The notes under the pieces: model-generated
The model's database searches: none
Told to the model about the DNA's origin: nothing
Seen by the model: only the letters and a program-made list of their open reading frames with translations
Assembly (NCBI GenBank): GCA_014843695.1
Contig: CM026393.1
Location: 9,945,536-10,009,535, forward strand
DNA length: 64,000 bases
Origin: Archivesica marissinica
Lineage: Eukaryota > Mollusca > Bivalvia > Venerida > Vesicomyidae
Reading direction: 5' to 3'
Position numbers and translations under genes: made by a program
Shown here: one piece after another, positions 40,801 to 46,800 of the stretch
Layout: every line of letters begins with the position of its first letter
Position numbering within the stretch: position 1 is the first letter of the stretch

Positions 40801-43800
40801 CAGTAAGTACTGTATACATGCGGACATTCTCACAAACCATACTCCCAGTAAGTGCTGTATACATGCGGACATTCTCACAAACCATACCATCAGTAAGTGC
40901 TGTATACATGCGGACATTCTCACAAACCATACTCCCAGTAAGTGCTGTATACATGCGGACATTCTCACAAACCATACTCCCAGTAAGTGCTGTATACATG
41001 CGGACATTCTCACAAACCATACTCCCAGTAAGTGCTGTATACATGCGGACATTCTCACAAACCATACTCCCAGTAAGTGCTGTATACATGTGGACATTCT
41101 CACAAACCATACTCCCAGTAAGTGCTGTATACATGCGGACATTCTCACAAACCATACTCCCAGTAAGTGCTGTATACATGTGGACATTCTCACAAACCAT
41201 ACCATCAGTAAGTGCTGTATACATGCGGACATTCTCACAAACCATACTCCCAGTAAGTGCTGTATACATGCGGACATTCTCACAAACCATACTCCCAGTA
41301 AGTGCTGTATACATGCGGACATTCTCACAAACCATACTCCCAGTAAGTGCTGTATACATGCGGACATTCTCACAAACCATACTCCCAGTAAGTGCTGTAT
41401 ACATGCGGACATTCTCACAAACCATACTCCCAGTAAGTGCTGTATACATGCGGACATTCTCACAAACCATACCATCAGTAAGTGCTGTATACATGCGGAC
41501 ATTCTCACAAACCATACTCCCAGTAAGTGCTGTATACATGCGGACATTCTCACAAACCATACTCCCAGTAAGTGCTGTATACATGCGGACATTCTCACAA
41601 ACCATACTCCCAGTAAGTGCTGTATACATGCGGACATTCTCACAAACCATACTCCCAGTAAGTGCTGTATACATGCGGACATTCTCACAAACCATACTCC
41701 CAGTAAGTGCTGTATACAATTATATGTATGTCCAATCTTGTAGATAGTATACACACAATCTTGTAGATAGTATACACACAATCTTGTATATAGTATACAC
41801 ACAATCTTGTATATAGTATACACACAATCTTGTAGATAGTATACACACAATCTTGTATATAGTATACACACAATCTTGTATATAGTATACACACAATCTT
41901 GTATATAGTATACACACAATCTTGTAGATAGTATACACACAATCTTGTATATAGTATACACACAATCTTGTAGATAGTATACACACAATCTTGTATATAG
42001 TATACACACAATCTTGTAGATAGTATACACACAATCTTGTATATAGTATACGCACAATCTTGTATATAGTATACACACAATCTTGTATATAGTATACACA
42101 CAATCTTGTAGATAGTATACACACAATCTTGTAGATAGTATACACACAATCTTGTATATAGTATACGCACAATCTTGTATATAGTATACACACAATCTTG
42201 TAGATAGTATACACACAATCTTGTAGATAGTATACACACAATCTTGTATATAGTATACACACAATCTTGTAGATAGTATACACACAATCTTGTATATAGT
42301 ATACACACAATCTTGTAGATAGTATACACACAATCTTGTAGATAGTATACACACAATCTTGTATATAGTATACACACAATCTCGACCACGGAGGCGGACT
42401 TGTATATAGTATACACACAATCTCGACCACGGAGGCGGACTTGTATATAGTATACACACAATCTCGACCACGGAGGCGGACTTGTATATAGTATACACAC
42501 AATCTCGACCACGGAGGCGGACTTGTATATAGTATACACACAATCTCGACCACGGAGGCAGACTTGTATATAGTATACACACAATCTCGACCACGGAGGC
42601 GGACTTGTATATAGTATACACACAATCTCGACCACGGAGGCGGACTTGTATATAGTATACACACAATGATCTCATGGTTTGCAGTACAGTATATATGAAA
42701 CGCACCATGACAAACCAACACACATAAAATACATCTGAAAGTAAAGAACTACCAATGTCTAGTAGTTGCCTGTGTTTGTCTAGTAGTTGCCTGTGTTTGT
42801 CTAGTAGATTGCCTGTGTTTGTCTAGTAGATTGCCTGTGTTTGTCTAGTAGATTGCCTGTTTTTGTCTAGTAGTTGCCTGTGTTTGTCTAGTAGATTGCC
42901 TGTGTTTGGCTAGTAGTTTCCTGTGTTTGTCTAGTAGATTGCCTGTGTTTGTCTAGTAGTGTCCTGTGTTTGTCTAGTAGATTGCCTGTGTTTGTCTAGT
43001 AGATTGCCTGTGTTGGTCTAGTAGTTGCCTGTGTTTGTCTAGTAGATTGCCTGTGTTTGTCTAGTAGTTGCCTGTGTTTGTCTAGTATATTGCCTGTGTT
43101 TGTCTAGTATATTGCCTGTGTTTGTCTAGTAGATTGCCTGTGTTCACATGCACACTACTAGACATATTCTATGTCTGGTGTGTTTCAGTGAGTATCTGGA
43201 CAACATTCTATGTCTGGTGTGTTTCAGTAAGTATCTGGACAATATTCTATGTCTGGTGTGTTTCAGTGAGTATCTGGACAATATTCTATGTCTGGTGTGT
43301 TTCAGTGAGTATCTGGACAATATTCTATGTCTGGTGTGTTTCAGTGAGTATCTGGACAATATTCTATGTCTGATGTGTTTCAGTGAGTATCTGGACAATA
43401 TTCTATGTCTGGTGTGTTTCAGTGAGTATCTGGACAATATTCTATGTCTGGTGTGTTTCAGTGAGTATCTGGACAATATTCTATGTCTGGTGTGTTTCAG
43501 TGAGTATCTGGACAATATTCTATGTCTGGTGTGTTTCAGTGAGTATCTGGACAATATTCTATGTCTGGTGTGTTTCAGTGAGTATCTGGACAATATTCTA
43601 TGTCTGATGTGTTTCAGTAAGTATCTGGACAATATTCTATGTCTGGTGTGTTTCAGTGAGTATCTGGACAATATTCTATGTCTGGTGTGTTTCAGTGAGT
43701 ATCTGGACAATATTCTATGTCTGATGTGTTTCAGTGAGTATCTGGACAATATTCTATGTCTGGTGTGTTTCAGTGAGTATCTGGACAATATTCTATGTCT

Positions 43801-46800
43801 GGTGTGTTTCAGTGAGTATCTGGACAATATTCTATGTCTGGTGTGTTTCAGTGAGTATCTGGACAACATTCGCCTCGTGGATTCTGGCATTAAGGACATG
43901 GTTGATCTTATAGACTCTTACTATAATAATGATGGTGCAACAGTCTATGTGATGTCATCAGATCATGGAATGACAGACTGGGGTATGTACAATTGACACG
44001 TCATTGAACAACTCGGAAGAAGACTATCCAATATTCTTTCTTGAATGTGTTTAGGATGTTATCTATGTTTTGTTGCTAGATATACATGTAGTCCAATTGT
44101 GATGACATTGTTTGGTTTTGAAAATGACTTCATATCATCTTACCATTGTGGAGATATTCTGTGTCTGAATGGTCAATGTTGTGGCCTGACAACCACTTCC
44201 CCTCTCTGATGCGAGTACAAGTTATACATGAACAGATTATTCCGAGTGAGGAAGCTACCCAGCTGACCAGAGAATGGTCGGTGACTCTGACTTGGTGCCC
44301 GTCCGTGTTCGATGCACTGCCTGAGTGTTCTTCCACTTAAGATCTGGAGAGCTGCTATGCAACCATGATGACGGATCAGGGGAGACTCTGGAATGAGTCT
44401 CATACTGTATCATTACACTATCCTCCAAAAATCTAAAATGACTAATCTCTTCAGGAGGTGTCGCTCATATGGGCAATCGGTAGCGATGATAAATAAACGA
44501 AAAACACACACTCAACCATGATGTCTGTGCGACTATATATCCCTAAAAGAGAAACTGACAACTTATCTCTTGGACAATATCAGTGTTTAATATTCACCAT
44601 TCCACCATATTTTAAATGATTTACGAGATGTTTAGAACTGACAACATAACAGACGTGAAGTATTATATTATTTAGTTTATACAAATTTGTTTTAACTTGA
44701 TTGCGAAACAAGTTCTTACAACTTATATTAAACACTCTCGAGACCTCATTCCTGATGGAATCCATCGCCACAAGGGAGAGAAAAGGGGCAACATGGAATT
44801 TAAATGCCTTGCCAAATGGCACAATCGTAACAGCTCCAGCGGGGCTCAAACTTCAGTCCTTTCGCATGGTCGCACCTGAAGCGAACTTGCTACCACTAGA
44901 CTACCATGACTTCCATGTGTATATCTGTGTGTGGTTATCTGTTTATATATCTGTGTGTGGTTATCTGTTTATATATTTGTGTGTGTATCTGTACATGTAT
45001 TTGTGTGTGTATCTGTACATGTATCTGTGTGTGTATATCTGTACATGTATCTGTGTGTGTATATCTGTACATGTATCTGTGTGTGTATATCTGTACATGT
45101 ATCTGTGTGTGTATATCTGTACATGTATCTGTGTGTGTATATCTGTACATGTATCTGTGTGTGTATATCTGTACATGTATCTGTGTGTGTATATCTGTAC
45201 ATGTATCTGTGTGTGTATATCTGTACATGTATCTGTGTGTGTATATCTGTACATGTATCTGTGTGTGTATATCTGTACATGTATCTGTGTGTGTATATCT
45301 GTACATGTATCTGTGTGTGTATATCTGTACATGTATCTGTGTGTGTATATCTGTACATGTATCTGTGTGTGTATATCTGTACATGTATCTGTGTGTGGTT
45401 ATCTGTACATGTATCTGTGCGTGTGTATATCTGTACATGTATCTGTGTGTGGTTATCTGTACATGTATCTGTGTGTGGTTATCTGTACATGTATCTGTGT
45501 GTGTATATCTGTACATGTATCTGTGTGTGGTTATCTGTACATGTATCTGTGTGTGTATATCTGTACATGTATCTGTGTGTGGTTATCTGTACATGTATAT
45601 GTGTGTGGTTATCTGTACATGTATGTGTGTGTGGTTATCTGTACATGTATCTGTGTGTGGTTATCTGTACATGTATGTGTGTGTGGTTATCTGTACATGT
45701 ATCTGTGTGTGGTTATCTGTACATGTATTTGTGTGTGGTTATCTGTACATGTATTTGTGTGTGGTTATCTGTACATGTATCTGTGTGTGGTTATCTGTAC
45801 ATGTATTTGTTTGTGTATATCTGTACATGTATGTGTGTGTGGTTATCTGTACATGTATCTGTGTATGTATATCTGTACATGTATCTGTGTGTGGTTATCT
45901 GTACATGTATCTGTGTGTGGTTATCTGTACATGTATCTGTGTGTGTATATCTGTACATGTATCTGTGTGTGGTTATCTGTACATGTATCTGTGTGTGTAT
46001 ATCTGTACATGTATCTGTGTGTGGTTATCTGTACATGTATATGTGTGTGGTTATCTGTACATGTATGTGTGTGTGGTTATCTGTACATGTATCTGTGTGT
46101 GGTTATCTGTACATGTATGTGTGTGTGGTTATCTGTACATGTATCTGTGTGTGGTTATCTGTACATGTATTTGTGTGTGGTTATCTGTACATGTATTTGT
46201 GTGTGGTTATCTGTTCATGTATTTGTGTGTGGTTATCTGTACATGTATTTGTGTGTGGTTATCTGTACATGTATTTGTGTGTGGTTATCTGTACATGTAT
46301 TTGTGTGTGGTTATCTGTACATGTATCTGTGTGTGTATATCTGTACATGTATCTGTGTGTATAACTGTACATGTATTTGTGTGTGTATATCTGTACATGT
46401 ATCTGTGTGTGTATATCTGTACATGTATCTGTGTGTGGTTATCTGTACATGTATTTGTTTGTGTATATCTGTACATGTATCTGTGTGTGGTTATCTGTAC
46501 ATGTATTTGTGTGTGGTTATCTGTACATGTATCTGTGTGTGGTTATCTGTACATGTATTTGTGTGTGGTTATCTGTACATGTATCTGTGTGTGGTTATCT
46601 GTACATGTATCTGTGTGTGGTTATCTGTACATGTATTTGTTTGTGTATATCTGTACATGTATCTGTGTGTGGTTATCTGTACATGTATTTGTGTGTGGTT
46701 ATCTGTACATGTATCTGTGTGTGGTTATCTGTACATGTATTTGTGTGTGGTTATCTGTACATGTATCTGTGTGTGGTTATCTGTACATGTATTTGTGTGT

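Follow-up and report, generated by a model that had tools for sequence, protein, structure and literature searches.

A 39-nt minisatellite repeats the acceptor of PIGN exon 6 eighteen times in the clam Archivesica marissinica and is probably silent in splicing

PIGN is a conserved enzyme of glycosylphosphatidylinositol-anchor synthesis. In the bivalve Archivesica marissinica the 3′ splice site of its sixth coding exon is repeated 18 times in tandem, and the question raised by this locus is which of these acceptors is used and whether the choice alters the length of the protein. The stretch of DNA analysed, here called the window, comprises 64,000 nt of the forward strand of contig CM026393.1 (assembly GCA_014843695.1, positions 9,945,536 to 10,009,535). 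In a preliminary description of this stretch it had been proposed that acceptor choice adds 0 to 17 copies of a 13-residue repeat to the enzyme. With a probability of roughly 0.8, the exon 6 array is instead a mirage, as such boundary-straddling minisatellites are called in amphioxus, which is mostly silent and in which the last AG is the dominant acceptor.

The PIGN exons in the window were located by tblastn with human PIGN as query, and the gene was traced 100 kb downstream of the window in the 1.54 Gb assembly. Segments L009 to L018 designate DNA downstream of the window, and the numbering of the window is continued into them with positions above 64000. Joining of the window exons resulted in a clean N-terminal part of PIGN with canonical borders, the closest proteins being those of bivalves (top 86%; Mercenaria and Ruditapes 85%; best 120 of 4554 matches), as expected of a venerid-like clam, with apparently none from the species itself among the matches listed. 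For the part of the exon 6 query that lies beyond the array, the 16 matches listed contain a single place. The features at exon 6 are:

43164..43871, + strand: 39-nt minisatellite of 18.2 copies (tandem repeat finding and sequence inspection)
43188..43851, + strand: 18 tandem 3′ splice sites (TTTCAG), the G of each AG at 43188 + 39n
43852..43982, + strand: PIGN coding exon 6 when spliced from the last AG (spliced alignment to Mercenaria PIGN)

The array spans 708 bp with a period of 39 and 98% matches (Tandem Repeats Finder score 1367), and its unit joins the last part of PIGN intron 5, with the polypyrimidine tract and the CAG, to ~20 nt of exon 6. The CAG splice signal is present in 18/18 copies and the spacing of the acceptors is 39 nt in 17/17 intervals; repeat finding and site listing thereby confirmed the 18 acceptors from 43188 to 43851 of the preliminary description, in which the gene, the exon number, the copy number and the frame arithmetic were right, as was the exon end at 43982, the donor GTATGT beginning at 43983. 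In the spliced alignment to Mercenaria PIGN the last array copy is the exon 6 acceptor, and the exon so delimited has 131 nt, start phase 2 and end phase 1.

All AGs had been said to share one phase and the 13-codon unit to be free of stops, and this holds for all 18 acceptors: each is compatible with the PIGN frame, exon extensions of 0 to 663 nt are stop-free, and from the first AG onward 17 units (663 nt, 221 codons) read straight into exon 6. The units do not encode one invariable 13-residue sequence, since the consensus form is found in 12/17 inserted units, while three carry V>M and two E>K. A GTGAGT had been reported to overlap each acceptor; it does so at 16 of 18, and GTAAGT takes its place at the other two (after 43227 and 43617). 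The GT of each copy shares its G with the AG, an overlap of one base, and because of this shared base a copy used as donor changes the length by 39k ± 1 (by arithmetic, acceptor-to-donor exons of 39k−1 nt and donor-to-acceptor introns of 39k+1 nt) and breaks the frame, on which the suggestion that each copy could act as a donor fails.

Mirages have been described in amphioxus for Adh3, the globins BflGb6 and BflGb9, troponin C and PGBD5, where they were reported or suggested to leave regular splicing undisturbed (PMC3087553, PMC3902484). The exon 6 array of the clam is likewise minisatellite-like, its unit spans a genuine exon-intron boundary, AG and GT are copied with it, and its internal units are homogenised with the exclusion of the ends, as seen at a single site that reads ACAAC in the first unit and the exon copy and ACAAT in the 16 internal units. 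In the amphioxus mirages and in the clam alike, tandem units lie across an exon edge and bring AG or GT with them, both 5′ and 3′ boundaries are involved, and array-boundary units escape homogenisation. The clam case differs in its host, a bivalve, in its copy numbers (18, 23 and 25 in the larger arrays), in the occupation of both ends of one intron and in having one array wholly in frame. Allele length differences are a further trait of mirages; the clam array was seen in one assembled copy. No bivalve mirage was recognised in the literature searched, by titles and abstract openings, which does not prove absence; within this literature, boundary-straddling minisatellites are extended from amphioxus to a bivalve.

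Two other known systems resemble the array. NAGNAG and other close tandem acceptors share with it the in-frame choice of AGs, whereas their AGs lie up to ~12 nt apart and a spacing of 39 nt implies separate recognition at the first step of splicing and not a choice at the second (PMC9225289). Intron gain by tandem duplication, and the internal tandem repeats found in humans at exon-intron boundaries (PMC2812944), also involve tandem copies with AG and GT; in the clam, intron creation from a copy's GT to the next AG would excise 39k+1 nt, with loss of the frame.

The idea that the array is special to exon 6 was rejected, as 8 of the 52 listed PIGN exon edges sit in tandem arrays. The list of 52 omits the donor near 91178, the end of the last exon and both edges of a small exon near 63952, and its edges at 132977 and 136865 are uncertain. 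One of the eight array-covered edges is the start codon, perhaps no splice site at all: the AG ahead of the exon 1 ATG is weak and at most a candidate acceptor. The preliminary description did not include the array on the exon 5 donor, by which intron 5 has arrays at both ends, with 23 donors and 18 acceptors. Apart from exon 6, the edge arrays, together with exon 5 itself, are:

31367..31627, + strand: 72-nt minisatellite, 3.6 copies (4 sites), on the coding exon 1 start codon with its preceding AG
31803..32031, + strand: 80-nt minisatellite, 2.9 copies, on the exon 1 donor (3 donors)
40588..40712, + strand: PIGN coding exon 5, ending with the CA of a split codon
40679..41718, + strand: 45-nt minisatellite, 23.1 copies, on the donor of exon 5 (GTAAGT at 23 sites, each preceded by an exon base at 40712 + 45n)
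L009:1387: acceptor array, 62-nt unit, 4 sites
L009:3153: acceptor array, 75-nt unit, 2 sites
L010:9492: acceptor array, 50-nt unit, 25 sites
L016:4583: donor array, 41-nt unit, 3 sites

Each edge array was checked for the copies that would still encode PIGN. In six of the seven arrays other than that of exon 6 there is exactly one such copy, always the core-proximal one (1 of 3, 23, 4, 2, 25 and 3), and the remaining copies lead to a frame shift or a stop; at exon 5, for example, donors 2-23 each include an in-frame TAA. The seventh array, at the start of exon 1, still permits PIGN protein, its extra copies adding only start codons farther upstream, from which reading would end in stops. PIGN mRNA therefore requires the core-proximal choice at six edges, and the same choice is the simplest expectation at exon 6, where, to judge from the sequence, splicing most likely picks the last AG and leaves no insert.

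The exon 6 array would have originated when a 39-bp stretch across the acceptor was duplicated in tandem, and would then have expanded to 18 copies. ATTC is common to both sides of the array on inspection; in a scripted check for microhomology at the exact ends of the founding duplications, the exon 5 array gave 5 nt, one further array 3 nt and the remaining six arrays none. Exon 6 would be recognised across the exon, with proximity to its donor as the likely tie-breaker among near-identical acceptors, such that most transcripts would use the nearest one, the last AG at 43851, and would lose the remaining 17 copies with intron 5. In five exon-definition minigenes with two equally strong donors, the donor proximal across the exon was used exclusively (Carranza et al. 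2022, PMC9225289).

Acceptors and branch points were scored with approximate matrices. Five of the 18 acceptor copies were scored, of which three were equal and two slightly weaker. The candidate branch points are:

43824, + strand: A of TCTGGAC, 27 nt upstream of the last AG
43146, + strand: A of TGTTCAC, preceding the first AG by 42 nt

TCTGGAC occurs at −27 before acceptors 2-18 (17 places) with no AG between, and is supplied each time by the exon-derived portion of the unit ahead; all units but the first thus have the look of self-contained acceptors. It was also considered that a single branch point upstream of the array might be followed by scanning to the first AG, according to the branch-point-to-first-AG rule (Gooding et al. 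2006, PMC1431707). This reading is only weakened; an AG at 43160-43161 intervenes, 15 nt after the 43146 site.

Several observations weigh against dominance of the last AG in an intact gene. The best-scoring branch-point-like site, TGTTCAC at 43146, precedes the array, a position from which early AGs would be favoured. In the minigene study, weakened donors in larger minigenes led to exon skipping, human data without a strength filter indicated preference for the downstream donor in all intron classes, and for acceptors of similar strength exon definition only reduced the usual upstream preference (PMC9225289). Furthermore, no match to Mercenaria PIGN residues ~617-630 and ~650-665 was found in the traced gene span.

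Among the alternatives, the one that survives best overlaps with the dominance of the last AG and may be entertained as a possible, tentative addition to it: one to three of the upstream AGs would be used at a few per cent each as functionless splicing noise that is tolerated in frame. Given the unit length and the neutral frame, occasional upstream use leaves the frame unbroken; splicing to the next AGs would lengthen the protein by 13, 26 or 39 residues, and the resulting exons of 170-248 nt are within the usual size range. A precedent is the variable number tandem repeat (VNTR) of human ABCA7 intron 18, whose unit starts with a donor and lies, as in the clam, with its splice site beside an exon, and for which 2 ± 1% of transcripts retain one unit (PMC5954066). 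It differs from the clam exon 6 array in its position on the donor side, its 25-bp unit and the breaking of the frame by retention, and its length affects skipping of the next exon (PMC5954066). Minor use of the next AGs by the clam appears plausible on this analogy.

A functional length switch, in which genuine AG choice would give isoforms of PIGN lengthened next to the active site by as many as 17 copies of a 13-residue repeat, to an extent that may differ from tissue to tissue or allele to allele, is improbable. It draws on the stop-free phase of all 18 acceptors and on the similar scores of the five copies scored; the spacing, rightly described as far beyond NAGNAG, is that of an ordinary class, as 3,839 human events involve alternative acceptors at least 20 nt apart (PMC9225289). 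Frame neutrality has a chance of ~0.18 per array by our own arithmetic, i.e. 1/3 for the period multiplied by (61/64)^13 for a 13-codon unit without stops (~0.54), and the one frame-neutral array among five on the acceptor side is about the chance expectation. The insert position lies between two blocks of the enzyme which we take to be metal-binding; it aligns without a gap even to bacterial phosphodiesterases, and the junction motif KPxSxxYxxNIxLVD is free of an insert in 10/10 relatives read. Six substitutions were counted among the 17 units, five of them amino-acid changing, a number too small for a test, and nothing in the sequence points to coding constraint on the units. Transcript fragments of the species, queried with one extra unit, gave no hit that was species-like by identity (best 120 of 135), and a PDB search with exon 6 alone yielded nothing useful. 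The proposed addition of 0-17 repeats thus found no support, the array being one of eight on PIGN edges, six of the other seven coding only through their core-proximal site, the relatives read lacking the insert and the amphioxus mirages reportedly leaving splicing intact; we infer that the array is without function. A frame-neutral length dial, by which acceptor choice together with allele length would set the number of repeats by the catalytic metal site, is a shade less probable again; if true, it would be paired with the array of 23 donors on the 5′ side of intron 5.

An assembly artefact as the source of the array or its copy number is highly improbable: the region is array-rich and holds N runs (1000 N at 28332-29331), against which stand the array's size of only 708 bp, the variant shared by its internal units and absent from both end units, as in a true array, and the recurrence of the same kind of array along PIGN. 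Equally improbable is a decaying PIGN whose arrays are part of the decay, as the two short coding pieces not found and exon L011:7128-7178, without a donor at its match end, are set against 27 listed exons over 112 kb that match PIGN, nearly all with AG and GT borders, and against the single place that exon 6 outside its array matched among the 16 matches listed.

The exon 6 array belongs to a known kind of structure, in a genome rich in arrays, and is most likely silent; its value lies elsewhere. The PIGN arrays, in which a genuine splice site recurs in 2 to 25 near-identical copies, constitute natural competition assays for spliceosome choice. Six of them have a single readable answer; at exon 6 any choice would be tolerated, and junction reads there would therefore reveal the unselected distribution of acceptor use.

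The genomic setting was characterized by the array content. Tandem arrays make up 48,394 of the 64,000 window bases (76%) and 67% of the non-N PIGN gene span; in ten 10-kb samples from elsewhere the load lay between 4% and 100%. With such a high load, arrays straddling exon edges are expected. Edges in arrays were compared with a birth process as null, all edge tests being post hoc: 4/20 window edges against 1.7 expected (P 0.08), 8/52 edges of the whole gene against 3.1 (P 0.009) and, without the start-codon edge, 7/51 against 2.9 (P 0.02). For the clathrin heavy chain, no array was found on an exon edge in 24 exons (17 + 7; ~48 edges) judged by inspection of tblastn ends, in stretches consisting to 35% and 27% of arrays. 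Enrichment of arrays at splice sites is not established and is not claimed.

The other PIGN features in the window are:

31595..63972, + strand: window part of the PIGN gene, which continues ~80 kb past the window
31595-31821, + strand: PIGN coding exon 1
34008-34129, 35740-35838 and 38429-38535, + strand: PIGN exons
51859-51978, 56087-56127, 59263-59322, 60365-60457 and 60903-60958, + strand: PIGN exons after exon 6
~63949-63972, + strand: small PIGN exon, borders approximate, outside the main list of 27

AG and GT borders are present at all listed exons except L011:7128-7178 and the end of the last exon. The match of L011:7128-7178 ends at the edge of a TCCATC-type array by a 5.7-kb N run, without a donor there, and the ~14 residues following it were not found; the missing piece at residues ~617-630 adjoins the 5.7-kb N run. 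From its sequence the gene is near-complete.

A 48-nt tandem duplication (2.0 copies, L016:9782-9878) is located where the last PIGN exon ends, within or close to the C-terminal codons. In PIGN intron 4 an open stretch of 187 codons (39314-39877) resembles the C-terminal end of a non-LTR (long terminal repeat) reverse transcriptase. Upstream of PIGN a single 22-nt minisatellite is ~14 kb long (7001-21387), and the run of exactly 1000 N at 28332-29331, located between two arrays, is probably a scaffold gap. A 38-39-nt array on contig C2088 (L002:1501-2310) with CAGTGAGTATCTG...TATGTC.GGTGTAT is 72% like the exon 6 unit, which may reflect chance among many arrays or dispersal of this unit. Finally, a 35-nt array of 8.2 copies (L016:4738-5023) was observed in the intron before the exon at L016:5305; its unit resembles the coding start of that exon (TTTTGATGCAGCGTCTGTTCTGTGTT), ~280 nt away, and the array has perhaps lost contact with its exon edge.

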